Shown: one piece after another, positions 6,127-31,408 of the stretch
Layout: each line of letters opens with the position of its first letter
How positions within the stretch are numbered: the first letter of the stretch is position 1
DNA from: Lachnospiraceae bacterium
GTDB lineage: Bacteria; Bacillota; Clostridia; Lachnospirales; Lachnospiraceae
DNA length: 36,462 nucleotides
Direction: 5' to 3'
Assembly (NCBI GenBank): GCA_022788085.1
Contig: JALEWA010000007.1
Span: 1 to 36,462, forward strand
Notes under the pieces: model-generated
Database searches by the model: none
What the model saw: the letters and a program-made list of their open reading frames with translations, nothing else
What the model was told of the DNA's origin: nothing
Position numbers and translations under genes: made by a program

Positions 6127-6552
6127 TTAGTATTCCTTTTTTATCTCATCTAACCCATAAATTGCTTTAAATCTTTTCTCGTCTTCCATGTCTCTTATCA
6201 GCATTACTTCCGTAAAATGTCCATCATCATAATTTTTAAATCCTGCCACCTTTTCGCCGGTACAGATAGACACACGAAGCACCGCATACTGTTTTTCCGG
6301 ATCATATGGTATTTTTTCTTTTAATGTACGCTCATAATACGGAATCCTGCTATTGTCCTTCCACATTTCAATCAGAAATACAATCAGAAATGCCACTAGA
6401 GTAACTACACCAATAGCACAAAGCCACCATAGAAAAATATGAAACAGTAACCAGATTATTCCAGGAATCACCGCTGTAAACAGCAAACCAAAACAGATCC
6501 ACTTACCACCATAATGTATGGAATTAATCTTAGGAATATTGTTCTTAATCAT
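6127..6552 (-). CDS. Small membrane protein with cytosolic C-terminal domain, unknown function
   Basis: A 141-residue protein I do not recognise. The N-terminus is short and polar, followed by two adjacent hydrophobic helices (about 17-40 and 42-63, rich in Trp and Leu). The soluble 80-residue C-terminal part has the stretch YAVLRVSICTGEKVAGFK and an acidic/basic end (LDEIKKEY). Its stop is 5 bp before the ATG of the DUF1232-arsenate reductase gene, which suggests the two work together. A GGAG site lies somewhat far upstream of the ATG. Confidence 0.7.
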   Translation of the reverse strand: MIKNNIPKINSIHYGGKWICFGLLFTAVIPGIIWLLFHIFLWWLCAIGVVTLVAFLIVFLIEMWKDNSRIPYYERTLKEKIPYDPEKQYAVLRVSICTGEKVAGFKNYDDGHFTEVMLIRDMEDEKRFKAIYGLDEIKKEY

Positions 6553-6625
6553 TTCAATTTATCTTCTCCATTCACAAAAGAATTTATCGTTTTTCTTTCA
6601 ACATTCTTTTCCTTCAACTTGGGTT

Positions 6626-6918
6626 TTATAATTCGCAAAACATTTTCACTCTTAATGGTCTTTGGGTAAATAATTCAGCATTTTTAGCTATAATCGTTCT
6701 TGGGTGTCGGTATATATCACCCCCAACAGGTTCATCAATAATATACAAGTATCCCCTTTCATCAAATTCTTGCTTCAGCTCAAGTATGTATTTTTTCCAG
6801 GGCATGACGGTTTTTTCTCTCACTCTGGCACTGGTATCTCTTTTCTCGGGGCATGGCAACCCATTTCTTTCATCAATGCCCCGAACACCTTCTTCTCCTC
6901 CTTAAAAGCCTCGATCAT
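6626..6918 (-). pseudogene. Unrecognised gene remnant in two overlapping frames
   Basis: Two short frames overlap here. One starts at 6918 (MIEAFKEEKKVFGALMKEMG) and stops at 6820 after 32 codons. The other runs to 6626 and contains MPWKKYILELKQEFDERGYL from 6805, a convincing protein-like stretch without a good ribosome site. A single frameshift near 6820-6860 would join them into one protein of about 95 residues. I cannot name a family. It lies just downstream of the truncated VOC gene in a run of remnants, so decay is more likely than a genuine pair of small genes. Confidence 0.4.
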
Positions 6919-6934
6919 TCCCAATTTGGATTAA

Positions 6935-7189
6935 TCACGCAGTTTGCTCTGTCATAATTCCCCAACGTATTCCAAACTTATCAACGAAAACTACTCTACA
7001 AGAACTATAAGGCGTAGCTTCCATTTTATATATTGTTTTACTTCCTTCTTTCATAATTTCATATGCTCTCTGCACTTCTTCTTTTGTATCATACATGATA
7101 GTAAGAAAGTTAGAATAGCAAACTTGAAATTCTATATCTACATGGTCACTCATGATTATTCTTTGGTTACCCAGCATAAGTTCTGCATG
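6935..7189 (-). pseudogene. 5'-truncated PhnB-type VOC family gene
   Basis: The frame encodes the C-terminal half of a PhnB-like VOC protein: HAELMLGNQRIIMSDH, then IMYDTKEEVQRAYEIMKEGS and a typical SCRVVFVDKFGIRWGIMTEQ ending. Family members are about 130-150 residues; only about 85 remain. The homology starts in the middle of a codon run with no ATG or ribosome site, and an in-frame TAA lies just upstream of the homology. The N-terminal half is absent from the following bases, so this is a deletion remnant and not a functional gene. Confidence 0.8.
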
Positions 7190-7236
7190 ATAATTCAGTT
7201 ATGTAATTGTATTTAATTCTATATCGATTTTACATC

Positions 7237-7503
7237 CTACTGAATCATCAATACTCCTGCCTCTTGCATGAGCTGTACCTGTTTACTAAAGGTCTTTTCA
7301 TTCCTAGCTCCCACACATGATAATAACAGCCTCACTGCATAACCTCTCTTTGACGCATCTAATGCTGTTTTTGCCACGCAACAGCTTCCATCAATTCCAA
7401 CTATCTCCAGTTCTGTTATTCGCATTTCTACTAATTTATTAACAAATTCTTCTGATTTGAATGCACTAGGGTGATTTTTCTCGATAATGAATTCCGATTC
7501 CAT
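7237..7503 (-). pseudogene. 5'-truncated cysteine hydrolase (isochorismatase family) gene
   Basis: The 88 codons match the C-terminal half of isochorismatase-like cysteine hydrolases. The catalytic Lys region is FIIEKNHPSAF, the nucleophile region is IVGIDGSCCVAKTALDA (Cys41/42), and the tail is RLLLSCVGARNEKTF. The family's N-terminal half with the catalytic Asp (usually VVDMQNDF-like) is missing, while full-length members have about 170-190 residues. The apparent ATG has an AAGGTG much too far upstream (16 bases). It sits between other remnants, so it is most likely inactive. Confidence 0.75.
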
Positions 7504-7532
7504 TTTACAGAACTCTATTCACCTTTGCAATT

Positions 7533-7628
7533 TCATTTATTTGTATCCACTACAATTCTTCCATCCAAAGTAACAATCAGGTACATCTTTTCCTTACCCA
7601 CATTAAAGTGGAAGTTCTCGGAAGCCAC
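7533..7628 (-). pseudogene. Short frame, probable C-terminal gene remnant
   Basis: After the acetyltransferase stop, another minus frame reads through without a stop to 7533. The stretch FHFNVGKEKMYLIVTLDGRI is clearly protein-like, with beta-strand character, and ends VVDTNK. A GTG at 7628 with GAGG ten bases upstream could start a 31-residue peptide, but the same frame is open further upstream without a start. I therefore read it as the tail of a lost gene. No family is recognised. Confidence 0.35.
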
Positions 7629-7672
7629 AATAGTTCCATCCTCACACTTCGCTGTAATGGTAAATTCCTCTC

Positions 7673-8134
7673 TTACTGCACCAGTACAAACCGCGGACCT
7701 TCTTCTCCTATGATTCCGTTAGGTATAAATCCTGCCTTTTCCAATACTCTCTGGGAAGCCAAGTTGTTCAAATCTGTTTCTGCCTCAATCTTTGAGACCC
7801 CTGGCTGTGACAATGCCCACTTTGTAATCGACTCTACCATTTCTGTGGCATAACCATTTCCCCAATACTTAGGGATAACACCATATCCAATCTCTACACT
7901 TCCATCACTATTCAGTCCTTTAAAGCAAAAATCTCCGACCCTTGTTTTGTCCTCAAGCTCCATTACCCAGATTGCATACCACGGTCTCTGATCAGGATTC
8001 TCTACGCATCCGGTATACATTTCTGTATATGCTTGTATCATCTCAGGATCCTTCTCCTCAGAAATCAGCTTCTTCATCTCTTCATCCGATAACATTCTTA
8101 GTGACATCCTTTTTGTCTTCACAATTTGATTCAT
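7673..8134 (-). CDS. GNAT family N-acetyltransferase (RimJ/RimL-like)
   Basis: A 153-residue acetyltransferase. The acetyl-CoA motif is IGYGVIPKYWGNGYATEMVE, followed by IEAETDLNNLASQRVLEKAG (the conserved N-x-x-S-x-x-V-L-x-K-x-G-F motif of RimJ/RimL-type enzymes). Such enzymes acetylate ribosomal proteins, amino groups of drugs or small metabolites; which one applies is unknown. The ATG is 4 bp downstream of the MATE stop and its GGAG ribosome site lies inside the last MATE codons. Translation is therefore coupled to the exporter, which hints at a shared detoxification role. Confidence 0.9.
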   Translation of the reverse strand: MNQIVKTKRMSLRMLSDEEMKKLISEEKDPEMIQAYTEMYTGCVENPDQRPWYAIWVMELEDKTRVGDFCFKGLNSDGSVEIGYGVIPKYWGNGYATEMVESITKWALSQPGVSKIEAETDLNNLASQRVLEKAGFIPNGIIGEEGPRFVLVQ

Positions 8135-8138
8135 ATTC

Positions 8139-9524
8139 TTATTTCTCCATTAAATAATCGTTCTTATAGTACCTTACGACATCCTGTCCCTTCCACTCTT
8201 TGACAATCCTCAAATATTTCCAGAAATTGATCAGCGCTCTTACCGCCTCATCCACCAGTACAGCCAGAAATACACCCGTAATTCCAAACTTGCATACATA
8301 GACAAAGAATGCTGCTACACCAACAATGCTTATCGTTCCAAATATTTGCGTATAAAGCATCCACTTAGTATTTCCGCTTCCACGGATTCCATTTCCAATG
8401 ATAATATTTGCAGATTTTGAAAAGAGATTAATTCCGATAATCAAAAGATATATACTGCTCGTTGTAATGATAGAAGAATCATTCGTAAACAATGCAATAA
8501 TCTGCTCCGGAATCGTAATCCCCAGAATAATCATAATGACTGCAACAATTATGCAAAGTCCATATGCACATATACAAACACCCTTATACTGTGCCAAATC
8601 CTTCTTACCGGTTGCTTCCGATGTCAGTGTCATGGTACTGTTTCCAATAGCTCCTACAACAACCACTGCCAATACTTCCACTCCAAATATGATGGAATAT
8701 ATTCCTGCTGCAAATTCGTTTATAGTATTCAGGATTCTGATCAGACATAAATTTCCAATATTCCATGCAAAATCTTCAAGTGCAGTATTTACTCCAAGTT
8801 TTGCAGATGCGAGGTAAGTAGACAGCTTCGCTCTCCTTATTCCTTTCATGGAAGGCCTCGTACCCAGCTTTTTACTTGTAAAAAAGACATATGTCATGAA
8901 GATTGCTCCCAAGTATTCCGCTATGGCTGTTCCAATCGCAGCTCCTTTTATTCCAAGAGCCGGAACCCCCAATTTACCATAAATCAGGATATAATCCAGT
9001 ACTATGTTAAGACCTGCTCGAAGTAAGCCATATACTACCATCGGCTTAGTGTAATTTGATGTCTGAAGTATTACACTAAGCGATCCGCCTAATCCGGTAA
9101 GAATGAATACCGGTGCATAAAATCTGGCATAACTTAAGCACATTGGCATCAAATTATCAGATACACCCATGAATTTGAAAACCGGTTCTGATAAAAAAAG
9201 CCAGAACAAAAACAAAAGCATCGGTATTATGTTATTATATTTTATCATGGCTCCTGCATACTCTTCAATATGCTCCCTGTTCCCTGCTCCAACACTTTGA
9301 CTAATTAAAATGGAAGCACCTGCTGACAGAGCAAAACAAAATGACATAGTGGCCCACATAGGCGATGTAACATTTGACAATGCACTCATGTATAAATTGT
9401 CTGCATGTCCAAGAAAAATTCTGTCAATCAGCATCTGCAACTGACTTATAATATTGCTCATGATAATAGGTACTGCTATGATAAGCAGCTTTCTTAAATA
9501 TATTTTCTCTTTTTCCAATTGCAT
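8139..9524 (-). CDS. MATE family multidrug/toxin efflux transporter
   Basis: A 461-residue integral membrane protein with about 12 helices in two similar halves, typical of MATE exporters that expel cationic drugs or metabolites using Na+ or H+ gradients. Family landmarks are the start LLIIAVPIIMSNIISQLQML, the segment IDRIFLGHADNLYMSALS, and GLGGSLSVILQTSNYTKPMV in the middle. GAGGTG six bases before the ATG is a good ribosome site. A sigma-A promoter and a possible LytTR operator lie upstream. The downstream acetyltransferase is translationally coupled. Confidence 0.93.
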   Translation of the reverse strand: MQLEKEKIYLRKLLIIAVPIIMSNIISQLQMLIDRIFLGHADNLYMSALSNVTSPMWATMSFCFALSAGASILISQSVGAGNREHIEEYAGAMIKYNNIIPMLLFLFWLFLSEPVFKFMGVSDNLMPMCLSYARFYAPVFILTGLGGSLSVILQTSNYTKPMVVYGLLRAGLNIVLDYILIYGKLGVPALGIKGAAIGTAIAEYLGAIFMTYVFFTSKKLGTRPSMKGIRRAKLSTYLASAKLGVNTALEDFAWNIGNLCLIRILNTINEFAAGIYSIIFGVEVLAVVVVGAIGNSTMTLTSEATGKKDLAQYKGVCICAYGLCIIVAVIMIILGITIPEQIIALFTNDSSIITTSSIYLLIIGINLFSKSANIIIGNGIRGSGNTKWMLYTQIFGTISIVGVAAFFVYVCKFGITGVFLAVLVDEAVRALINFWKYLRIVKEWKGQDVVRYYKNDYLMEK

Positions 9525-10355: not shown

Positions 10356-10794
10356 AATCATCCTCCTCTTCGTCAGCTCTAATCTGCGCCAGCTTTTTAT
10401 TGATATCATCTGCTTCTCTCTTTTCCAGAAAGTAGCTGATTGCATAAGTGGCTATATCAAAAAACAGAATAGAAAAAAAGATTGCCACATAACCAAGTTT
10501 TCCCGGCACATCGCCAACCATTTTATATACAATCCATATAAATGCAACCTCAAGAACAATCCATTCTACAATTCTTTGAATCATGATTTGCTTGACCGTT
10601 AAGTCCTCTTTTACATAAGTAATGATGCAGGGAATAATACATAGAAGTCCTATGATTGCCGGTAAAAGAAAATAGCTAAAAGAAATAGATACATCCTTTG
10701 CGAAAATACTTCCTACGATTCCGAAGGAAAGCGCAATTTCTGCCTGAATTAAAATATAATCTGAAATCATTCTTTTTAAAGCATTTCTGCTCAA
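10345..10794 (-). CDS. Four-helix membrane protein, DUF3021-like, LytTR partner
   Basis: A 149-residue protein with four hydrophobic helices (about 12-32, 40-61, 75-94, 99-123) and a charged cytosolic tail that ends EEEDDYVQ. The helix spacing and the segment EDLTVKQIMIQRIVEW after helix 2 recall DUF3021 proteins. Those are commonly encoded right after stand-alone LytTR regulators and are thought to sense or restrain them. The start is a TTG: AGAGGTG lies six bases before it and no ATG fits. It follows the LytTR gene by 105 bp and overlaps the deacetylase by 11 bp. Family assignment is by layout and neighbourhood. Confidence 0.75.
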   Translation of the reverse strand: MSRNALKRMISDYILIQAEIALSFGIVGSIFAKDVSISFSYFLLPAIIGLLCIIPCIITYVKEDLTVKQIMIQRIVEWIVLEVAFIWIVYKMVGDVPGKLGYVAIFFSILFFDIATYAISYFLEKREADDINKKLAQIRADEEEDDYVQ

Positions 10795-10862
10795 TTTTTA
10801 CACCTCTCTTTTATATCTATGGCAAAAGCATACTCATGCTTACGTCAAAAATCTACAACATA

Positions 10863-10891
10863 CCGATAAGCTGTAGTCTATAACCGATAAG
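10863..10891 (-). promoter_or_regulatory. Candidate LytTR operator between regulator and membrane partner
   Basis: CCGATAAG occurs at 10863-10870 and 10884-10891 on the plus strand, 21 bp apart, within longer imperfect 21-bp direct repeats that also share a TAG/CAG-type core. This fits two half-sites for a LytTR dimer. On the minus strand a weak -35-like TTGTAG follows 4 bases downstream, with no good -10 box, as expected of an activator-dependent promoter for the four-TM gene. A small hairpin (AAGCAT/ATGCTT, 10826-10841) lies between it and the TTG start. Confidence 0.5.
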
Positions 10892-10899
10892 TTACAGAC

Positions 10900-11343
10900 T
10901 TATGCAGCTTTGATTGCTTCAGACACTTCCTTTGCATATTGTCTTGATATCAATACCTCTTCACCATTAATCATAGTTGCTATAAAACGTCCGTTTAATG
11001 CAGGACGAACAGATTTAATCTTTCTGATGTTGACCAGAAAAGACTTTGAAACTCTTAAAATCATATTATGCTTTGTTGCCTCTTCTATTTGGTATAAACG
11101 CATCTTAATCTCATAAACCTGTGTCTTTGTATATGCAAACACAAGCTCTCCCACTGCTTCAAAATAAAGAATCTGATGCAGTTCTATCTGATACACCTCT
11201 TTATTCTCACCATACCCGACAATCCAGCTCTTCCTTCCTTCTATGTAATTACAAATATCCTCTAATTCTTTCGTCCATTCAAGATATTCTAATATAATCG
11301 TATTCTCTTCTGATGATGATATTTTCCGTTTAATCAATTTCAT
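10900..11343 (-). CDS. Stand-alone LytTR family DNA-binding regulator
   Basis: A 147-residue regulator without a receiver domain. Residues about 45-145 form the LytTR DNA-binding fold, with [20 protein letters not shown], then [20 protein letters not shown] and a final [14 protein letters not shown]. The N-terminal 40 residues are a short charged region. The ATG overlaps the xpt stop (ATGA), so it is translationally coupled to xpt. The downstream four-TM protein is the usual partner of this class. Target sites are probably the 21-bp direct repeats at 10863 and 9591; this would give a circuit controlling the membrane partner, the deacetylase and perhaps the MATE exporter. Confidence 0.9.
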
Positions 11344-11954
11344 AGTGTTCCACTCTTTCCCTTTTCCTGTTGCGAACTATCTCGAAAGCAGATATTTCCT
11401 GTTGTTGCATCCATACTTTCCACAATAGCAAGCGATTCTAACTGATAGCCAAGATTGCGAATCATTCTGCCGCCAGGCTGAAATCCCTTTTCTATTGCAA
11501 TACCAATCCCCTCAACAGTTCCCCCTGCTGACTGTACAATCTGAATCAACCCCTGCAGTGCACAGCCATTTGCAAGGAAATCATCAATAATCAATACATG
11601 ATCATCAGGCCCGAGGAACTTCTTAGAGACAATAACCTGATTCTTACAGCGATGCGTAAAGGACTCTACCTCTGCCACATACATTTCACCCTCAATGTTG
11701 ATACTCTTGCTCTTTTTTGCAAAAACAACAGGTACCTGAAAATACTGCGCTACAATACATGCAATCCCAATACCGGAAGCTTCTATTGTTAGAATCTTAT
11801 TGATTGACTTATCTGCAAAACGTTTCTTAAATTCTTCTCCCATCTGATTAAATAAATCAATATCCATTTGATGGTTCAAAAAACTGTCTACCTTTAAGAC
11901 ATTTCCTTCCTTTACAACTCCATCCTGCATAATACGTTCTTCTAAAAAATTCAT
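11340..11954 (-). CDS. xpt: Xanthine phosphoribosyltransferase
   Basis: A 204-residue type I phosphoribosyltransferase that converts xanthine and PRPP into XMP for purine salvage. The Xpt-specific N-terminus is visible ([20 protein letters not shown] followed by SFLNHQMD), as is the PRPP-binding loop [11 protein letters not shown] (120-130). Length matches Xpt (about 190-200). Agrees with the family at both ends apart from a basic tail ([10 protein letters not shown]) that overlaps the LytTR start. AGAAGGGAG lies eight to ten bases before the ATG. Xpt genes in Firmicutes often follow a guanine riboswitch; none is recognisable in the 170 bases upstream, so control probably comes from the upstream operon. 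Confidence 0.93.
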
Positions 11955-11982
11955 CTTTTGCTCCCTTCTATTTGACTCATAA

Positions 11983-12126
11983 TTACATCCATTGAAATTG
12001 GCTCATTACCAACACCTTACCACTATTCAGACAATTTATCAATTCTCTATCCTTCTTTATATCATTATAGGAAGAAAAATCTCCAAGCACATATACGGTA
12101 TCCGCAATAAAATATTCTTTTCCCAT
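11983..12126 (-). pseudogene. Internally deleted metallophosphoesterase remnant
   Basis: A 47-codon frame starts at the last base of the phosphoesterase stop codon (TAATG overlap). It opens MGKEYFIADT, like the first strand of calcineurin-like phosphoesterases (usually YFISDTHFGH), but jumps straight to VYVLGDFSSYNDIKKD, which matches the second metal motif (DTVYILGD) normally about 50 residues later. It ends with [12 protein letters not shown] where GNHD would be expected. The DT shared by both motifs suggests a deletion between two similar sites. It has lost the metal ligands and is probably inactive. Confidence 0.5.
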
Positions 12127-12941
12127 TACAATTCTATAATCTCCATGGCATCTTCGATTTGTTTTCTAACATCCTTATCACCAAGCCATTCCGTATGATA
12201 GTTCAGGCATCTGCACATCCATGTTACCTGATTCTCCGTAAAAGTATTCCGATAATGAACGTGGCCACATATAGAATACTGTACCCCATTTTCCACGCAT
12301 AGTTCTGTAAGCTTTCTGCTTCCAAGAAATGCGTTGAAATAACTCCATATCGGATTTATATCTTCCGGAACTGCAAAGGCTTTATGGGAAATCATATGTG
12401 TCATTAAGACAATCTTCTTTTTCTTAGGCTTACTTTCCCTAATACGCTTATCAAGCTGCTGACAAAACCACTCACATCGCACTTCGTTATTTCTTGACCA
12501 GGTATTAAATAGAGAATCCTGCCATGTTCTGCCCTCGTATGTCATTTTTTCAAAATCCTGTTTATCAAATCTTTCCTGATTACCAAAGCTGTAATCATAC
12601 CATGCAATATCACCAATTATGACGTGATTGTCAGTTTCATATACTTTGCCGGATAAGCAGTGTTCATCCTCCAAAAACATCTCATATATCTTGTCATTAC
12701 TTTCATATGATAAATCCTGATTCCACATATCATGATTCCCCGGGACATACAGAACCTTCACTTTGCAAAGTGACTCCAGTTTCTGTACAGCTTCTATCGT
12801 TTTTTCAGGATTTGAAGTGATATCTCCTGCAATCAGCAACAGCTCAACTGCATTCTTCCGGACGTACTCTGCAATTCCGGCTATCACATCATATTCCTCA
12901 TTGATATCAATATGGATATCCGAAATAACTGCTGTTCTCAT
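12126..12941 (-). CDS. Metallophosphoesterase (calcineurin-like)
   Basis: A 271-residue cytosolic phosphoesterase with all metal motifs in order: SDIHID (Asp8, His10), AGDI (Asp40), PGNHD (68-71), LMTHM, and CGHVHYR near residue 225. The layout matches the Firmicutes group of putative phosphoesterases of about 270 residues often found as single genes (TIGR03729-like; assignment from memory). The ATG is 1 bp after the Gx transporter stop, so it belongs to the ApbE operon. AAGG-type ribosome sites lie inside the transporter's end. The substrate is unknown. Confidence 0.88.
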   Translation of the reverse strand: MRTAVISDIHIDINEEYDVIAGIAEYVRKNAVELLLIAGDITSNPEKTIEAVQKLESLCKVKVLYVPGNHDMWNQDLSYESNDKIYEMFLEDEHCLSGKVYETDNHVIIGDIAWYDYSFGNQERFDKQDFEKMTYEGRTWQDSLFNTWSRNNEVRCEWFCQQLDKRIRESKPKKKKIVLMTHMISHKAFAVPEDINPIWSYFNAFLGSRKLTELCVENGVQYSICGHVHYRNTFTENQVTWMCRCLNYHTEWLGDKDVRKQIEDAMEIIEL

Positions 12942-12942
12942 T

Positions 12943-13434
12943 TTAATAACCTTGCCTTTCTATGTGTTTATATACTCTTTGTCCGACAATTCCAATCAGC
13001 ATACCTGTTATCAAACCAGCTACCAATAGTACCGGCATATAGTATAAAACATGTAAATTTTCTACCACGCATGATGCTATCATAAGCTGTCCGACATTAT
13101 GGCTTACTCCTCCTGCCATGCTGATTCCTGTCATGGAAAATCCTTTAAACTTCTTTAATAATAACATAACAAAGAAGCTTAGAACACCCCCTGCCAGACT
13201 GTAAATAAGCGAGGACATATTTCCAAACATAAATGCCGATAATATGATTCTTACTACTAAAATGCCAAACACTTGAAATGGTTTTAGAATAAATAATCCA
13301 ATAACTACAACGAGATTGGCAAGCCCAAGCTTAATCCCAGGTATTCCAAACGAAAAAGGTATCAACACCTCCACATAACTGAATATCATAGCTAAAGCAA
13401 CTAACATAGATGAATACGCAATCTTTTTTGTCAT
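12943..13434 (-). CDS. Gx transporter family / heptaprenyl diphosphate synthase component I-like membrane protein
   Basis: A 163-residue polytopic protein with about five helices. The signature IPGIKLGLANLVVVIGLF near residue 32 and GGVSHNVGQLMIASCVVEN near 110 match the Hpre_diP_synt_I family, whose members resemble ECF-type substrate-binding subunits and have been named Gx transporters. The start at 13434 is chosen by AAGGAG eight bases upstream and by the family's MTKKIAYSSMLVAL beginning; the longer frame overlaps the NusG-II gene. The order ApbE, NusG-II, Gx transporter is a recurring Clostridial arrangement. It may import a flavin or quinone precursor, but that is inference. Confidence 0.87.
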   Translation of the reverse strand: MTKKIAYSSMLVALAMIFSYVEVLIPFSFGIPGIKLGLANLVVVIGLFILKPFQVFGILVVRIILSAFMFGNMSSLIYSLAGGVLSFFVMLLLKKFKGFSMTGISMAGGVSHNVGQLMIASCVVENLHVLYYMPVLLVAGLITGMLIGIVGQRVYKHIERQGY

Positions 13435-13474
13435 CTTCTGTCTCCTTATCTTTCCTGATGACGCTTCTGTCATT

Positions 13475-13846
13475 TTATTGTGAAACGCTGTCAATATCAT
13501 TTTCTTTTATTTCTGCATGTACTTCTACCACCAGCTTATGTGGCAGGCAAACAATCGTTTCATTTGTTTTTGTGATTGCCATATGCTTCACACAATACTG
13601 ATCGGGACAGTCTGCTTCTTCCATATGCACACTTCCATCCTCTATCACAATCCTGTTGAATCCCGATTCATTCCTTATTTCAATCGTTTGATTCTCTTTC
13701 ATGGAATAGCTGCCATATTCTCTCCCATCAATCATGATGCGAACTATTTCACCAGACCCTTTCTGTGAATAGTGCATAATCAGCGCCATTCCGGCAGCTA
13801 ACAGTAATATGACTGCCATGAAAATCATATCTTTTTTCTTAAACAT
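13475..13846 (-). CDS. NusG domain II-containing membrane-anchored protein
   Basis: A 123-residue protein with one N-terminal membrane helix (about 7-25) and an external NusG-II-like beta domain. The family motif is clear: ADCPDQYCVKHMAI followed by ETIVCLPHKLVVEV, with three conserved cysteines and PHKL. Despite the name it is not a transcription factor; it should sit outside the membrane. AGGTGA seven bases before the ATG overlaps the ApbE stop, so it is coupled to ApbE (11-bp gap), and the Gx transporter follows by 40 bp. The cysteines could be redox active or bind a cofactor; this is inference. Confidence 0.9.
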   Translation of the reverse strand: MFKKKDMIFMAVILLLAAGMALIMHYSQKGSGEIVRIMIDGREYGSYSMKENQTIEIRNESGFNRIVIEDGSVHMEEADCPDQYCVKHMAITKTNETIVCLPHKLVVEVHAEIKENDIDSVSQ

Positions 13847-13857
13847 TCTATTTTCAC

Positions 13858-14886
13858 CTAATTTTCGGAAACAATTTCATACTCCAGTTCAGACATAAAG
13901 GAACCTTCCAGTCCTTCTGTTACATATAGCATACCTGTATCATCGAAAAGCACTGCATCAAATTCATTCTTATGTGCCTTCCAATATGTGATTGCATCAT
14001 CTTTTCCCATCACATACAATGCTGTCGATAATCCATCTGCCAAGGTACCATCTTCACAGACAATCGTCACGGAGACCAAACCATTTTGTGCCGGTTTCCC
14101 ATTTTTAGGGTCAATAATATGATGATAAATAATGCCATTTTCCTCAAAATAACGTTCATATCCTCCCGAGGTAATCACTGCCTTGTCTTCTACAGAAATC
14201 ACTCCAAGATAAGGAAAAGTATCATCAGGACTCTTAATAGCGATTCTCCATAAACTTCCATCTGCCTTAGTCCCAACGGTCTGCACATTGCCACCCAAAT
14301 TGAGCTTTGCACTTTTGATATGATATTCTTCCATAATCTGTGATACACGTGCAGAGGTATATCCTTTCGCAATTCCACCAAAATCAATCTCTACCTGCTC
14401 TGGCAGCACTACTGTTTTTGTTTCCTCATCATAAGCAATTTGTGAAGAATCCACAAAATCCAACAGTCTTTTCAGTTCCTGATCTGTTGGAACCCGAAAC
14501 GTATCTCCTGCAAAACCCCATGATTTCATTACCGGATAAATGGTAATATCAAAAGCTCCTCCTGTAGATTTCCAGAGCTCCATCGAGCGTCTCAACAGAT
14601 ACGCAGAATCCTCGGAAACAACAGCAGTTTTGTTTTGATTCAACATAGTGATTTCGCTGGCAGCACTTCCTGTTGACAACAACGCATCAAGGCGCTCTAT
14701 TTCATCCACCGCTGCTTCTACTGCGTTCTCACTGTTACGGCCATATGCCGTAATTTCCATATAAGTATCCATAGCAAACAAGCTTCTTGTTGTACTTTTA
14801 TTCTCTTCCTGTAAAAAACATACCATGGCAGCCACAACTCCAACCAGCACCAATGACGCTGCCACTTTCTTCCATCCAATCTTCAT
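13858..14886 (-). CDS. apbE: FAD:protein FMN transferase (ApbE)
   Basis: A 342-residue membrane-anchored ApbE that uses FAD to attach FMN covalently to Thr in FMN-binding domains outside the membrane. The N-terminal helix spans about 8-26 with a Cys (AAMVC) that could be a poor lipobox. Family motifs are FAMDTYMEITAYG, TIYPVMKSWGFAG, EIDFGGIAKGY, LNLGGN, ITSGGYERYF, YHHIIDPKNGKPA and TLADGLSTALYVMG, so the enzyme looks complete. A strong promoter lies 42 bp upstream. Its likely target is the FMN-binding domain of the divergent membrane protein (16618-17712), possibly also the lipoprotein at 15127. It leads the operon with NusG-II and the Gx transporter. Confidence 0.95.
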   Translation of the reverse strand: MKIGWKKVAASLVLVGVVAAMVCFLQEENKSTTRSLFAMDTYMEITAYGRNSENAVEAAVDEIERLDALLSTGSAASEITMLNQNKTAVVSEDSAYLLRRSMELWKSTGGAFDITIYPVMKSWGFAGDTFRVPTDQELKRLLDFVDSSQIAYDEETKTVVLPEQVEIDFGGIAKGYTSARVSQIMEEYHIKSAKLNLGGNVQTVGTKADGSLWRIAIKSPDDTFPYLGVISVEDKAVITSGGYERYFEENGIIYHHIIDPKNGKPAQNGLVSVTIVCEDGTLADGLSTALYVMGKDDAITYWKAHKNEFDAVLFDDTGMLYVTEGLEGSFMSELEYEIVSEN

Positions 14887-14927
14887 TTGATGTCATTCCT
14901 TCTTTGTATTCACTTCAACTAAACCGT

Positions 14928-14956
14928 ATCGTACACACTTGTTTTCCTTGTGTCAA
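14928..14956 (-). promoter_or_regulatory. Sigma-A promoter of the apbE operon
   Basis: On the minus strand a perfect TTGACA (14951-14956) and TACGAT (14928-14933) are 17 bases apart. The ApbE start is 41 bases beyond the -10 box, with AAGGAA as ribosome site. Confidence 0.8.
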
Positions 14957-15035
14957 GAATAATCTATGCAAAGCTTAATGAAATACTTTATCAATTATCC
15001 GTTATTGACATTTACCTCGCTATCTGTTAAATTTG

Positions 15036-15068
15036 CTTGTGTTAGTTTTATCTCACTTGTGTTAGTTT
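15036..15068 (+). promoter_or_regulatory. Direct repeat CTTGTGTTAGTTT x2, likely operator
   Basis: The 13-mer CTTGTGTTAGTTT occurs at 15036-15048 and 15056-15068, exactly 20 bp apart, in the divergent region between apbE and the Tp47-like gene. The second copy overlaps a weak -35 box of the rightward promoter. The spacing suggests binding of a dimer on one face of the helix. Confidence 0.55.
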
Positions 15069-15090
15069 AATATTATTAAACCATTATAAA
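15062..15090 (+). promoter_or_regulatory. Probable promoter of the Tp47-like/FMN membrane protein operon
   Basis: TTAGTT (15062-15067, weak) and TATAAA (15085-15090) are 17 bases apart, 36 bases before the lipoprotein ATG. The weak -35 lies within the second direct repeat, as for a regulated promoter. Confidence 0.5.
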
Positions 15091-15126
15091 ACTATCATAT
15101 CATAAAACATCATAGGAGGACACATA

Positions 15127-16596
15127 ATGAAAAAGAAAAATCTTATACTAATTCTTAGCTTAACAAGTACATTAAGCATAGCTTCCATTGGTTGTGGAAG
15201 TGCAGAAACTTCCAATATTGCTGATGCTGAGACACCATTAGCTGACTCTACTGAAAATGCAGAGGATACTTTACTGTATGGTACCCTTGATTTATCATAT
15301 GCTGATTTTTATTATGGTGAGCTTAACCATATCGAACCAGAAATTGATGCGGTAAAAGGTCAGTATGATTCTGAAAATCTTACTGTTGCTGCCGGTTATG
15401 AAAAAGAAGGTATGTATGATGCCGTTACCAGTGCAACGACACAGAAGTCGAAAAGATTCAAATCTACTTTTTATGAAGAAGTTGACACAGGTGTCAATAT
15501 TTTAGGTATTGCTGATGTAAATGTTGCCATTTCCAGGGAATTATATGAGGATATTCAGAATGCTATTACAGCCGGAACAGAATGTAAAAATCCTTTAATA
15601 GAGTTGGTAAACGCTATGACTCTTTCTGAACAGGTACCTGCTGAATACAAGGTAATCAACTCTGATGGAACCTTGAGTAAGACCATCGGTAATACTATCA
15701 AAGCAGATCATGTTACAGCATCCTTAACCAGTATCTCAGCCTGGGGAAATTATCAGATTGATTTTGAAGGTCTTGAATTGGATGTAGCAACCGTTCAAGG
15801 TGCCATTCTTGAGACAAGTGATGGTGCTGTTTACGGCTTAGAGCATGAAGATAATCTTTGGCTTAATGCCTCCGAACTTTCCGTTGCCGTTGTTCCTTTC
15901 AAAGAGCCTCACGGAAATGATGTTGCTTACCAGCGTTTTGCTGATTTGCCTGGAAAAACAATTACCAAAATAACTTATCTTGTTGCAAATGGTGATGACA
16001 TTGAAATGAATACTAATCTTTTCTATCCTCAGATCCTATCTGAAGAATATGGTGTCGCAGGGGATTCGACAGTTACCTATTCAAAAGATGGTACGAAAAT
16101 TAATGCTTCCTTAACTGTTCCGGATGATAGCTCTTATACATTGACAAAGATAGCATTTGGAAAATCCCCTATGGATATTTCCACAGTAGCTTATGAGAAT
16201 GATACCATTACTCTTCCTGCAGAATTTACTCCCGGCTCATACAAGCTTTCTTTCGAAGATTCTGTATATTCCGGCTTAAGTCTTTCTGTTCTTATTGATT
16301 CCGGTCTTTCTGAAAGCGATGTTTCCTTTGATGGAACAACTATCCAGATTGCCGGTGACACCGGATTAACCGGTGCTGAATACATTACAAACTTATCCTC
16401 TGCTACGGTAAACGGAGAAAAAGTAAGTGGCAAGGGTCTTTCTTCCATTCTCTTTACAGATGATGGAAACCTGAATCTCGAAGCACAAACCTCCAAAGAT
16501 GATGAAAAGATATACGTATTCCCTGCAGGAGGTACTTATGAAGTCACCCTGGAGTCTACCGGTTTCCCTTCCATCACCTTTACGGTTGAACATTAA
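15127..16596 (+). CDS. Tp47-like (penicillin-binding Tp47 domain) lipoprotein
   Basis: A 489-residue exported lipoprotein. The signal peptide ends in a lipobox, IASIGC, with lipidated Cys23, then a low-complexity linker to about residue 48. The first domain resembles domain A of the Treponema pallidum 47-kDa lipoprotein: LYGTLDLSYADFYYGEL (50-66) and GMYDAVTSATTQKSKRF (95-111). The rest consists of beta-rich modules up to the ending ITFTVEH. Within the first domain, DAVTSAT (98-104) resembles the D-x-x-S-G-A-T flavinylation motif of FMN-binding domains. GGAGGA seven bases before the ATG supports the start. The FMN membrane protein follows by 21 bp. The role is probably redox or ligand binding at the cell surface; penicillin binding is not implied. 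Confidence 0.82.
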   Translation: MKKKNLILILSLTSTLSIASIGCGSAETSNIADAETPLADSTENAEDTLLYGTLDLSYADFYYGELNHIEPEIDAVKGQYDSENLTVAAGYEKEGMYDAVTSATTQKSKRFKSTFYEEVDTGVNILGIADVNVAISRELYEDIQNAITAGTECKNPLIELVNAMTLSEQVPAEYKVINSDGTLSKTIGNTIKADHVTASLTSISAWGNYQIDFEGLELDVATVQGAILETSDGAVYGLEHEDNLWLNASELSVAVVPFKEPHGNDVAYQRFADLPGKTITKITYLVANGDDIEMNTNLFYPQILSEEYGVAGDSTVTYSKDGTKINASLTVPDDSSYTLTKIAFGKSPMDISTVAYENDTITLPAEFTPGSYKLSFEDSVYSGLSLSVLIDSGLSESDVSFDGTTIQIAGDTGLTGAEYITNLSSATVNGEKVSGKGLSSILFTDDGNLNLEAQTSKDDEKIYVFPAGGTYEVTLESTGFPSITFTVEH

Positions 16597-16617
16597 TATT
16601 CTTGAAAGGAACGAGTT

Positions 16618-17712
16618 ATGAAACTACTTCTTGCACTTATTTTTGCGCTTATTGTTATCATACTTGCTGAGGACAGCATTCGAAAGCATCCGGCTATATG
16701 GTACTGTTCCGCTTTCCTGCTTTCTCTGTTTGGTATAATGCTTCCAGAGTCTGCACCAGGCTGGCTTCAGAACATCATAACGAGCTATATTAGTCGCGGA
16801 ACTCTTGCAACGGCATTGTTTATCTTAGTCATGTATGCAAGAATTCTTCCCCCAAAAAGCCGTATATTTCGTACCTTAATGAGTCTGAGGGCACCAATCG
16901 CCATCATGGCAGCATTTATGATTCTCCTGCATAACGGAACTTATTTTGTCCATTATCATGAAAACGCACGCCTAAAAGATATTTCCATGACTACTCCTGA
17001 AATTGTTGCCGCTGCTTGCACTACCCTCATGATATTACTGTTAATTCCCCTAACCATTACTTCTTTTACATGCGTACGTAAAAGGATGAAGGGAACTATC
17101 TGGAAAAAACTACAAAGACTTTCCTATTTATTTTATGGTCTTATTTATCTTCATGTAGCTTGTCTTTTCGGCTTACAGATTACCCGTGGCAATCAAAGCT
17201 ATCAATTGGAGCTTGCCATTTATACTGCTGTCTTTGGGGTATATCTTATATGCAGAGTGGCATTATATCTAAAAAGTACAAAGAAGGCTGGCGCAAGTAA
17301 ATATTTACGCAATATCGGTGTTCCTATTGTTGCTGCTTTGTCATTATTTATTCTCTTGTTTAAATTGCCACAAGAAAATGATGCTGTCACCATTGAAAAA
17401 GAGCCTGTTGCACTTACTATACCGGAATCATCTTCTCCCATATATCAAGACGGTGAATGGATTGGAAGTGCACTCGGCTACAATGATGATATTACTGTTT
17501 TGGTGGCAATAGAAAATAGCATAATAACAGATATTATCGTTTTAGAAAGTTCTGATGACAAACCATACTTTGATTGGGCTAAGGACGAAATCCCTTCTAA
17601 GATTATCTCAGCCCAATCCACCGAGGTAGATACTGTTAGCGGTGCTACCTTTAGCTCTAAGGGAATACTCAAGGCCGTTAACAATGCCCTTGAAAAAGCA
17701 AAAAATAACTAA
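16618..17712 (+). CDS. Haem-b-type (ferric reductase-like) membrane protein fused to FMN-binding domain
   Basis: A 364-residue protein. Residues 1-250 hold about seven membrane helices like the ferric-reductase/MsrQ family, with candidate haem-ligand histidines His105, His112, His114 and His179 (LHNGTYFVHYH and IYLHVACLFG). Residues 270-364 form an extracytosolic FMN-binding domain that ends with the flavinylation motif DTVSGATFSSKG (338-349), Thr344 being the expected FMN attachment site. Electrons could pass from a quinol or cytosolic donor via haem to covalent FMN and on to an outside acceptor. ApbE, encoded divergently, would do the modification. AAAGGA lies before the ATG. A terminator follows the stop. 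Confidence 0.88.
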   Translation: MKLLLALIFALIVIILAEDSIRKHPAIWYCSAFLLSLFGIMLPESAPGWLQNIITSYISRGTLATALFILVMYARILPPKSRIFRTLMSLRAPIAIMAAFMILLHNGTYFVHYHENARLKDISMTTPEIVAAACTTLMILLLIPLTITSFTCVRKRMKGTIWKKLQRLSYLFYGLIYLHVACLFGLQITRGNQSYQLELAIYTAVFGVYLICRVALYLKSTKKAGASKYLRNIGVPIVAALSLFILLFKLPQENDAVTIEKEPVALTIPESSSPIYQDGEWIGSALGYNDDITVLVAIENSIITDIIVLESSDDKPYFDWAKDEIPSKIISAQSTEVDTVSGATFSSKGILKAVNNALEKAKNN

Positions 17713-17721
17713 ACCTGCAAA

Positions 17722-17750
17722 AATCCTGAATGAACAGCTCATTCAGGATT
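17722..17750. terminator. Bidirectional Rho-independent terminator
   Basis: A perfect 12-bp stem (AATCCTGAATGA / TCATTCAGGATT) with a 5-base loop lies between converging genes. TTTCTTGCTTT follows on the plus strand and TTTTTGC on the minus strand. The left arm of the minus-strand stem contains the last three codons and stop of the Nudix gene. Confidence 0.92.
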
Positions 17751-18311
17751 TCTTGCTTTCCATTTATCATTCAATTTTTTATAGATCCATTCAACCATCC
17801 ATGGTTCAGAACATGCTTTTAATGCCTCTTCTAGCGTAAACCATTTCACGCCGCTATTCTCATCCGGCTTGATGCGGATTACCTCATCTTCGTCTGCCTC
17901 AAGAAGATACGTTACATTCAAGTGCAGATGTGATGGTACATAGCTTCCTCTTTTCACATGACCATCAACGGTAAGAATTTCTATGGAAAAAATATCCTCT
18001 GTAACTGCCCTAATTGATGTTACACCTGTTTCCTCCATTGCTTCCCTTCTTGCGACCTCTAATAGATTTGTTTCTCCATCTGCATGTCCACCTGTCCATG
18101 ACCATGAGTGATATATGTTATGATAAATCATAAGAACCTTTGTATGTTCTTTATTAAGCAGCCAGGAAGAAGCTGAAAAATGTGCTGTCTTATTATCCCG
18201 CATAAAGATATCCTTCTGTGTTTCCAGTAAATGCAACATCACTGCTTTATCATGCTCTTCCTGTTCATTCCATGGTACATAACTTTTCAAGTTTTTTATA
18301 AATTCTGCCAT
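17739..18311 (-). CDS. Nudix hydrolase, GGHADG type
   Basis: A 190-residue Nudix pyrophosphohydrolase. The box at about residues 74-97 reads TGGHADGETNLLEVARREAM and then EETGV; it is the GGHADG variety, one residue off the strict G-x5-E spacing but with the REAMEE core intact. The N-terminal 45 residues and the C-terminal tail (EEALKACSEPWMVEWIY) fit the IPP-isomerase-like size class. The ribosome site is weak (GAAAGATT). The terminator stem covers its last codons. It is unrelated to the Nudix protein at 4958. The substrate is unknown. Confidence 0.88.
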   Translation of the reverse strand: MAEFIKNLKSYVPWNEQEEHDKAVMLHLLETQKDIFMRDNKTAHFSASSWLLNKEHTKVLMIYHNIYHSWSWTGGHADGETNLLEVARREAMEETGVTSIRAVTEDIFSIEILTVDGHVKRGSYVPSHLHLNVTYLLEADEDEVIRIKPDENSGVKWFTLEEALKACSEPWMVEWIYKKLNDKWKARNPE

Positions 18312-18335: not shown

Positions 18336-19957
18336 TTACCGGTTTTCCTTTTCTTCCGTTACAATACCTATTTCTTTTGTATCTTCCACTTCAGGTTCAG
18401 AATCTACTCCCGATATTTCTTCTGCTTCAGATTCGGATTCTATTCCAGATATTCTTGCTTCAGGTTCCATGTCTATTGCAACTATCTCTTTCGGTTTAGA
18501 TTCTATGTCTGCTGTTGCATCCTGTTCCATCTCCGTTGTTTCCTCTACCTCGGCCTCAATTTTAAACTTCGCCATGGCATTTTCTAAGGAATTAACCCTC
18601 CTTGCAAGTTTTTCTGCCTTTTCAGTCAACTTGGAAATGAGATAAACCTGTTCATTTATAGTATTTGCCACACCTCCCGTCGATGCCGCAACCTCCTGTG
18701 AAACTTCTTTGCAGAATCTGTTGTTTGTTGTGTTGTTATACGAATATTAGCAACAATATCTTTAATCTGGTCTGCTGCCTGCATGGACTGACTTGCCAGC
18801 TTTCGTATCTCATCTGCTACTACGGAAAAACCTCTTCCATGTTCTCCTGCTCTTGCAGCTTCAATGGATGCGTTCAAAGATAACAGATTAGTCTGAGAGG
18901 CAATCTCATTAATCGTATCAATAATTTCTTCTATATCATCCGATCGCTTCTTTACATTTACAATATCCTCACCAAGCTCATTTGCAAGACGTACAATCGT
19001 TTCTGACTGTTTATTTAAGTCTTCTATGATTATTTTTCCATGTTTAACTGCTTCTATTGCTTTACCAGTCATTTCACCCATATTTTCTGCCTGGTCACAT
19101 ACAGAAATAATCTGTGTTGAAAATTCTGACATTTTTATATTGCAGTTTTCTGCATCCTGCTGAACTGTAGTTATGCCATCCTCTGAAAGTACATCCTGTA
19201 CACAGATTTCTTTACCATCCTGCGTGATCAATGCCTTGTAACATCCCTCACCGAAATCCATGCCTTCCAATGCAGACTTGATTACTTTCGCTTTAACTTC
19301 CAATAATACGATAGCATCGGCCTTTAAGAACTTCTGATAAAATACAATTCCACTTTCATTCTCATCCAAGCCAAATACCTCATCCAAATAAGAGTGTCTG
19401 CCTAGCCATACATTTCTGCAAGTACTCTCCATAAAATATGGCGCCTCCGCAGACTCAAACAGCTTTGCATATGAACCTTCCGGAATAGCTCCTGACCTTG
19501 AGGTAATCTGTGTACCATTTTCCGCTATAATATAATAGTGTTAGATATAATTTGTGCTTCCGGCTGTATAAATCAAATTCTGTCTCAATTCACGAAAAGA
19601 ATCATTAGCCTTAGAATTTTTATAATATTTCTCATAATATGCGGAGGCATTATCATCAATAATAATCTCATTTGCCTTACCAGCCACTGTTTCACACAAC
19701 AAATTAAAGTACAGACTTTCTGCTGAAATAGCACTAATAGAAGATTCCTTGTATTTATCTACAATCGTTTTAGATGCTTTTTGATAAGAAACAATACCAA
19801 GTATAATAATAAAGAATACAGGTACAAGAAATGCACCTACTAAAACTTCCTGAATCTTTCGCCCTTTGTTCTTTCCTGAATTCGTTTTGGTTACATGAAC
19901 TCTTTGAGTTTTTTCCTTTATCACATCTGGTCTTATCTTATCCGGTAGTCTAATCAT
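18336..19957 (-). pseudogene. Broken methyl-accepting chemotaxis protein (nonsense codon plus frameshift)
   Basis: The N-terminal part (19957-19541) has a basic start, one membrane helix (about 37-58) and the beginning of a Cache-like sensor. It stops at an in-frame TAA after AGSTNYI. The same frame continues ([11 protein letters not shown]) for the rest of the sensor and the cytoplasmic signalling hairpin, including [20 protein letters not shown] and [18 protein letters not shown]. Near 18705-18711 one base is missing: the frame turns to [12 protein letters not shown], while the -1 frame restores VSQEVAAS-like sequence and goes on through [15 protein letters not shown] to a very acidic tail. 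No second membrane helix or HAMP is evident between sensor and hairpin. AGGAGG precedes the ATG. Two independent lesions argue for a true pseudogene. Confidence 0.88.
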
Positions 19958-28404: not shown

Positions 28405-28437
28405 CTAAAAAATCCCTTGTACTTAATAGTACAAGGG
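28405..28437 (-). terminator. T-box regulated terminator
   Basis: Stem CCCTTGTACT/AGTACAAGGG with a 4-base loop, followed by TTTTTT on the minus strand, ahead of pheS. The 5' side of the stem follows the T-box by nine bases. Confidence 0.93.
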
Positions 28438-28673
28438 ACGAATTATCGTGGTACCACCCTGGTTCCCGCCTGAACATAATCTGCTTCAAACGGCTCTAAC
28501 AAACGTAACGTGTTCTTCTACGTCTCTGCCTACACAAAATATCATACTTCAACAGAGCTGCTCCGGTGGGAAATTCAATACTATATCTGAACTTAGGAAG
28601 CTTACAGCCGGTGACTTCCATTCTCTGAAAGAAAATATAGCTCTACTTTGCACCTTCCATGCATTTACTTTAT
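28405..28673 (-). promoter_or_regulatory. T-box riboswitch leader of pheST (tRNA-Phe responsive)
   Basis: The 14-base T-box AGGGTGGTACCACG is perfect on the minus strand (28447-28460), preceded by the GGCGGGAACC-type stem-III region and followed by a terminator hairpin (28414-28437). Uncharged tRNA-Phe would pair with the T-box and form the antiterminator. Upstream lies a stem-I region with paired ACCGG/CCGGT arms; a UUC that could be the specifier lies at 28570-28572, but I cannot fix it without folding. The leader starts near 28673, just after the promoter. Confidence 0.95.
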
Positions 28674-31214: not shown

Positions 31215-31402
31215 CTTTCGTATGCTCCAAAATGCCGGCTCCTGTATTTTGACTCCTAGCTTATGCTAGGTGGGCGACCGCAACCTTTCTCTCTGCCTTC
31301 CCCTGACCATAATGGGGGGCTTGACATCAATCAGGCAATATAGGAATCCCGTTTAAAGTGATGTAGGTTCAAAATAACAAGAGTAATCGCACATTTCAGA
31401 TT
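31187..31402 (-). ncRNA. Candidate structured small RNA, about 216 nt
   Basis: The 372-bp gap between the sensor kinase and SpoIID contains its own transcription unit: a consensus promoter (31409-31437), about 216 bases without a coding frame, and a strong terminator. The minus-strand RNA offers several helices: ACATCA/TGATGT (31364 to 31324) around a 29-base loop, a GC-rich hairpin CCCC/GGGG (31300-31317), AGGT-GCG/CGC-ACCT (31268-31286) and CCTAGC/GCTAGG (31255-31270). The last two share bases, so they are alternatives. Size and self-contained transcription would suit 6S RNA, or a riboswitch for the SpoIID gene. I do not see motifs that settle it. Confidence 0.6.
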
Positions 31403-31408
31403 AATCTT

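Follow-up and report, generated by a model that had tools for sequence, protein, structure and literature searches.

The five genes at positions 12,943 to 17,712 of a 36,462-nucleotide stretch of a Lachnospiraceae genome (assembly GCA_022788085.1, contig JALEWA010000007.1; the whole stretch is called the window) raise the question of what a flavin-carrying electron-transfer system outside the cytosol might reduce. The minus strand encodes ApbE, a flavin adenine dinucleotide (FAD):protein flavin mononucleotide (FMN) transferase, together with EetA and EetB, and the plus strand encodes a lipoprotein resembling Tp47, the 47-kDa lipoprotein of Treponema pallidum, followed by a membrane protein in which a haem domain is fused to an FMN-binding domain. 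The explanation that we favour, and consider probable, is that these genes encode a flavinylated electron-transfer system that works outside the cytosol under iron regulation and most likely serves as an assimilatory ferric reductase feeding FeoB. The gene content and its conservation, the homologies, the motif of the fusion and the operator-like boxes were observed directly and are given first.

A five-gene set associated with flavin-binding domains

An earlier reading of this DNA from its letters and open reading frames (ORFs), here the sequence-only reading, had proposed these genes, and both its ORF positions, which were exactly reproduced, and its gene calls agreed with the ORF list and Pfam. 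The proposed fusion was found as Ferric_reduct (PF01794) and FMN_bind (PF04205, E 8.3e-17) in one plus-strand protein. The FMN_bind domain contains DTVSGAT, which matches the ApbE motif D-x-x-[ST]-G-A-[ST] (PMC12052999), and ApbE is predicted to transfer FMN to Thr344 of the fusion; the claim that ApbE adjoins a target held, with apbE lying across the control region. His105 and His179 form an invariant pair (19/19 rows) and are the putative ligands of a b-type haem.

A PF01794 protein clustered with apbE and an FMN_bind gene, as found here along with the conserved His pair, corresponds to the MsrQ-like flavinylation systems defined by Meheust et al. 2021 (PMC8238504), some of which were proposed there to be assimilatory iron reductases. 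Therefore, the view that the combination matched no named system did not stand in full: MsrQ-like haem proteins with FMN-binding domains had been described (PMC8238504, PMC11334425), and Huang et al. 2024 (PMC11334425) show a protein that combines MsrQ with FMN-Bind1. In contrast to these systems, the locus has no NAD-binding domain, and it has a Tp47-like lipoprotein partner and a box in common with feo. The fusion scored 25.2 bits against the MsrQ equivalog, for which the cut-off is 130 (NCBIfam E 9.7e-6), and no MsrP-like protein was found among the eight window proteins scanned with Pfam and NCBIfam. Compared to STEAP metalloreductases and bacterial NOX (SpNOX), the fusion differs in its eight helices (by reading), its one conserved His pair, its external FMN domain and the lack of a cytosolic NAD domain.

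A likeness in logic to the flavin-based extracellular electron transfer of Listeria (EetA, EetB, FmnB) had also been suggested, and it was found to extend to the parts: EetA (PF07009), EetB (PF07456) and an ApbE-type enzyme (PF02424) are common to both, as is a lipoprotein partner. The families previously called NusG-II and Gx transporter were right, although their proper names are EetA and EetB, known neighbours of ApbE (PMC9973259). In Listeria, EetB is part of an FAD exporter, and deletion of eetA left activity unaffected; eetA, eetB and apbE are co-located, also beside some MsrQ-like systems (PMC9973259). By analogy, the window EetB may export FAD. The quinone gene of the Listeria demethylmenaquinone route, dmkA, is of the UbiA family, and no UbiA-family match was found in the genome of the window (96% complete; controls 14/14 positive). 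The locus differs from the Listeria system in this respect and in having the haem-FMN fusion and the Tp47-like lipoprotein. Given the lack of both an NAD domain in the fusion and a UbiA-family match, the likeliest electron donor is a cytosolic flavin reductase, as for MsrQ of E. coli, which is fed by a cytosolic NAD(P)H-dependent flavin reductase (PMC11031084).

Conserved co-occurrence in relatives, named beforehand as one of the findings on which the proposed system would stand or fall, was found in all three sets of genomes searched. Across 42 loci from named genomes, collected by the lipoprotein profile alone, FMN-binding domains lay beside or within the Tp47-like gene in 39: the haem-FMN fusion was directly 3′ of it in 18, and a further 21 had FMN_bind domains in the same protein or cluster, 15 of them with ApbE in the locus. 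Neither feature was seen in L046 (cut by the contig end), L077 and L081. When a family sample of 150 genomes was searched, 12 matched the profile, 11 of these with the N-terminal part, and FMN_bind was within 10 kb in 10 of the 11, the exception (G136) being on an 8.5 kb contig. The class sample gave 10 matches in 391 genomes, and the four besides the window genome that had the N-terminal part all had FMN_bind in or beside the gene. Excluded from the 11 and the four were G005, G800, G762, G634, G653 and G864, in which the match to A3 was outside the N-terminal part (query start > 60); A3 is the profile and alignment of the window protein and 40 complete domains (41 rows), without incomplete domains (e.g., L046, L072, L074, L080) and weaker Tp47-type segments. 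The locus counts are not independent events, because the sets overlap and six loci are from Lachnoanaerobaculum or close kin. The window genome is among the 11, the 42 loci share at least five genomes with the samples (G020, G072, G088, G026 and G782, which carry L055, L050, L054, L058 and L065, respectively), L065 and L129 are one stretch, and L067 and L068 have their site context in common.

In the G862 locus (L131), the genes for the Tp47-like protein, the fusion, ApbE, EetA and EetB follow one another in this order on one strand, and this single run supports the five window genes being one set. ApbE was present in 18 of the 19 genomes of L040 to L056, L059 and L079, within the fetched stretch only for L042 and L056; in the L040 genome another contig begins with ApbE, EetA and EetB side by side. 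The window copy is the one ApbE match in its genome, which has FMN_bind at four places, one of them in a gene run read as a full Rnf operon. The sole ApbE probably serves Rnf too, and therefore its position is no proof of an exclusive tie to the locus. In other relatives, multi-flavinylated NapH-type clusters pair the same Tp47-like domain with proteins of two to five FMN domains, a NapH-like protein, EetA/EetB and ApbE, whereas in the window one haem-FMN fusion replaces NapH and the multi-FMN protein.

When the window and 16 fusion loci were compared, no further conserved neighbour was found, and families reached three loci each at most: ApbE, several genes of the Lachnoanaerobaculum loci and kin (one also in L044), and trpD/trpC-like genes. 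The side of the Tp47-like pair on which genes read as trpD and trpC were found varied among the fetched stretches of L050, L055 and L059. In Lachnoanaerobaculum saburreum (L048, 11320-12377) the fusion gene is split in two frames.

An operator-like box at the locus and at feo

A palindrome, GTTAG-N6-CTAAC, was first noticed by reading the upstream regions of relatives. The exact box was found at 51 sites in 54 loci (900,523 bp; 49 distinct contexts), compared to 0-4 sites for each of 29 controls with the letters permuted. It was near the Tp47-like gene in 30 loci and near apbE in 11, for a union of 35 of the 54. The control region of the window contains a 9/10 match, where 0.016 would be expected per 300 bp of the window. 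The window's own genome has two exact boxes, and one of them is flanked by feoA (PF04023) and a divergently oriented gene for a DtxR-family repressor (C163) with both iron-dependent-repressor domains (PF01325 and PF02742). Allowing up to one mismatch gave 22 places, including the window promoter, a site between feoA and feoB (C163:9538) and a 9/10 box at C253:13277, which is 72 bp 5′ of the second feoB; two FeoB genes score over the cut-off. As in a DtxR-type iron regulon, a candidate operator is thus common to the window (9/10) and the feo operons (10/10 and 9/10). Both half-sites, GTTAG and CTAAC, occur with a shorter spacer in the Corynebacterium DtxR consensus TTAGGTTAG(G/C)CTAACCTAA (PMC1382209), a likeness that we regard as a lead.

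The window and 18 other loci have no exact box near the Tp47-like gene or apbE. The control pattern written backwards was commoner in the window's own genome, with 5 exact sites and 117 with one mismatch, so that the case for an iron box rests on position and not on number. The locus may be under DtxR-family iron control, and because its promoter box resembles the box at both feo operons, the electron acceptor, which the sequence-only reading had called unknown, can be narrowed to point to iron.

Other signs of iron were sought. A Fur box was rejected, as the five weak matches in the window compare to a shuffle mean of 7.95 and none is in the control region; among the loci a Fur-like 12/14 match was found only at L055. 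The idea that iron genes lie beside most loci was rejected as well, FeoB being found in 2 of 57. In L130 (5133-12833), the interval from FeoB to the Tp47-like gene contains boxes, and the fusion is followed by DUF6110 and a P1B ATPase, a pair that could, as a guess, be a ferrosome-like iron-storage unit; we do not claim a ferrosome there, as DUF6110 was absent from the ferrosome literature searched. L128 has two genes fusing Tp47-like and FMN_bind domains close by each other (6166-8577 and 10426-12726), with an exact box upstream of each. The second exact box of the window's own genome (L139, about position 2776) is after an ABC transporter permease-like gene and 448 bp before an N-acetylmuramoyl-L-alanine amidase gene.

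The ferric reductase explanation has to be weighed against a Listeria-like electron sink, in which flavinylated proteins would discharge reducing power to varied extracellular acceptors, iron being one of them, and the box would only tie the system to iron availability. Multi-FMN clusters have been linked to cell-wall electron transfer (PMC8238504), and the Tp47-like gene was accompanied by a protein with at least two FMN domains in 17 of the 42 loci and by a NapH-like gene in 16, as well as in 5 sample loci. EetA, EetB and ApbE, as parts of the Listeria system, also fit such a sink. The box in common with feo and the lack of a UbiA-family prenyltransferase match (the dmkA class) argue against it, and we consider it unlikely.

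The Tp47-like lipoprotein

The identification of the lipoprotein as Tp47-like was confirmed by homology to Tp47 (1o75) in both sequence and fold. The two proteins are alike in fold over 283 residues and in an N-terminal signature that includes DAV[ST]xAT, but the window protein has Ser for Arg in this motif, an extra C-terminal HID domain and a genetic link to flavinylation. Its sole Pfam match above cut-off was this Shr-like_HID domain (E 1.5e-5); PBP-Tp47_a gave no match over cut-off for the window protein and matched one of four members at E 0.0033. Pfam PF14889, tried as a Tp47 probe at phylum scale, matched 0 of 398 genomes and was positive in no control, so that it was uninformative and profile A3 was used instead.

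Residues D98, S102 and T104 of the window segment DAVTSAT are invariant in 41/41 rows, and 1o75 has DAVSRAT at the aligned position. A patch made up of Y58, D60, Y62, Y63 and E65 is conserved as well. In the structure model, Thr104 is directly N-terminal of a short helix (105-109). The strict ApbE motif is absent, Ser being at the Gly position in all 41 rows. In the one protein tested, changing Gly to Ala or Ala to Val in the ApbE motif roughly halved flavinylation (PMC12052999). Among 131 FMN_bind rows of the loci, the Gly position had 116 Gly, 6 Arg, 4 Ser and 1 Lys, and 4 rows had no motif; the tally includes overlapping loci, with L110 and L119 being one gene, so that two of the Ser rows are one gene. 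Therefore, the Ser and Arg of Tp47-like proteins are also found, rarely (10/131), in the FMN_bind domains that these clusters encode. Such a similarity is no more than suggestive of flavinylation at Thr104. DxVSRAT, with Arg for Gly, was seen in one FMN_bind domain of each multi-FMN protein of L057, L058, L074, L080, L124 and L125. In L062, L074 and L076, large surface proteins join a classic Tp47-type segment (DxV[ST]RAT, then NHGLHRG) and the DAV[ST]SAT type in one chain.

A wider proposal is that in Clostridia Tp47-like proteins, possibly themselves covalently flavinylated at the Thr of DxV[ST][SR]xT, are general surface partners of flavin-based ferric reductases under iron regulation, and that by homology the Tp47 antigen itself would be a redox or iron-chemistry protein that binds penicillin as a side activity; we regard this as speculative and on balance improbable. 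The titles and abstract openings of the literature searched did not connect Tp47-like proteins with flavinylation, and that literature had no account of their gene neighbourhood outside spirochaetes.

The HID domain raises the alternative that the main role of the lipoprotein is to receive haem or a host iron protein, from which the fusion would strip or reduce the delivered iron. PF07550 (Shr-like_HID) was found in 4/4 members scanned, including the window (best E 3.8e-8), and the 41-row profile also matched the Shr structure 6dkq (E 0.0069). The HID match is C-terminal and weak, however, the most conserved stretches being in the N-terminal part, and the Tp47-like protein of the five-gene run in L131 had no Pfam match at E 0.01. 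This makes a receptor a rather doubtful alternative. Envelope repair or oxidant defence in the manner of MsrPQ is very improbable: the membrane domain does have the weak, below-cut-off MsrQ similarity given above and a PerR/Fur-like regulator is near L128 (below every NCBIfam cut-off), L129 and L065, but these are 3 of 57 loci, two of which (L065 and L129) are the same stretch, an MsrP-like protein was missing from the window proteins scanned, and the box points to feo.

Layout of the locus and proposed mechanism

Table 1. Features of the locus and their positions in the window
Feature	Positions	Strand	Basis
eetB, energy-coupling factor (ECF)-type S component (Gx transporter, PF07456)	12943..13500	-	Pfam E 6e-41
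eetA, membrane-anchored NusG domain II (PF07009)	13475..13846	-	Pfam E 4.5e-33
apbE, FAD:protein FMN transferase	13858..14886	-	Pfam E 1.2e-84
Divergent control region, 240 bp, common to both units	14887..15126	.	ORF positions
Promoter-like TTGACA-17-TACGAT, towards apbE	14928..14956	-	Consensus scan, 10/12
Promoter-like TTGACA-17-TAAATT with TG, towards lipoprotein gene	15005..15033	+	Consensus scan, 10/12
Two 16-nt direct repeats, CTTGTGTTAGTTT[TA]AT, spacing 20	15036..15071	+	
Operator-like box, 9/10 to GTTAG-N6-CTAAC, just past -10-like element	15041..15056	.	
Tp47-like lipoprotein, 489 aa, C-terminal Shr-like_HID domain	15127..16596	+	
Codons of D98-A-V-T-S-A-T104, ApbE-motif-like	15418..15438	+	Alignment, 41 rows
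MsrQ/STEAP-like haem membrane domain and FMN-binding domain, 364 aa	16618..17712	+	Pfam PF01794 and PF04205; AlphaFold2 (AF2) model; fold matches
Codon of His105, predicted haem ligand	16930..16932	+	Invariant 19/19
Codon of His179, predicted haem ligand	17152..17154	+	Invariant 19/19
Codons of DTVSGAT with Thr344, canonical ApbE flavinylation motif	17629..17649	+	
Terminator-like stem-loop 3′ of two-gene unit, 13 pairs	17721..17751	+	Consensus match only

By computation, eetA and eetB overlap by 26 bases (Table 1). The promoter scan found 22 such sites in 12800-17900 compared to 17.4 expected, and is no proof of function; terminator-like stem-loops numbered 2 in the region against 3.1 expected. 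No FMN riboswitch was found in the window with Rfam at the gathering score, the only Rfam matches being a T-box leader (28431-28668, minus strand, 100.7 bits) and a 6S RNA (31220-31405, minus strand, 55.2 bits). A chemotaxis-receptor ORF (18656-19432) ends within the methyl-accepting chemotaxis protein (MCP) signalling domain (profile 24-115 of 172) and is followed by the next minus-strand ORF (18336-18671), a possible frameshift or assembly error.

As an assimilatory ferric reductase, the locus would work as follows. Under iron shortage, the DtxR-family repressor would release the common promoter region, as the box suggests. EetB, with ECF partners encoded elsewhere, would by homology export FAD, from which ApbE would move FMN to Thr344 of the fusion. 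Electrons from the cytosol, where an NAD(P)H-dependent flavin reductase is the probable donor, would cross the membrane via one b-haem, with His105 and His179 as its likely ligands, to the external FMN and from there to the Tp47-like lipoprotein, which may be a substrate binder or the terminal redox partner. Fe(III) would thereby be reduced to Fe(II) and then taken up by FeoB. In this scheme FAD export, FMN transfer, haem ligation, iron as the substrate and the role of the lipoprotein are inferred.

MsrQ-like flavinylation clusters, the iron-assimilation proposal for some of them (PMC8238504) and the co-location of eetA, eetB and apbE (PMC9973259) were already known. New, within the literature searched, are the Tp47-like partner across haem-type and NapH-type systems and the box that ties both to feo. 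A class of flavinylated haem reductases, few of whose acceptors are known, would thereby gain a testable physiological role in iron acquisition. They would also gain a recurrent partner domain, one that Pfam-based surveys would probably miss because no Tp47 model of Pfam matches the window protein. If the lipoprotein does carry covalent flavin, the recognition rule of ApbE, with Gly before Ala-Thr, would need widening.

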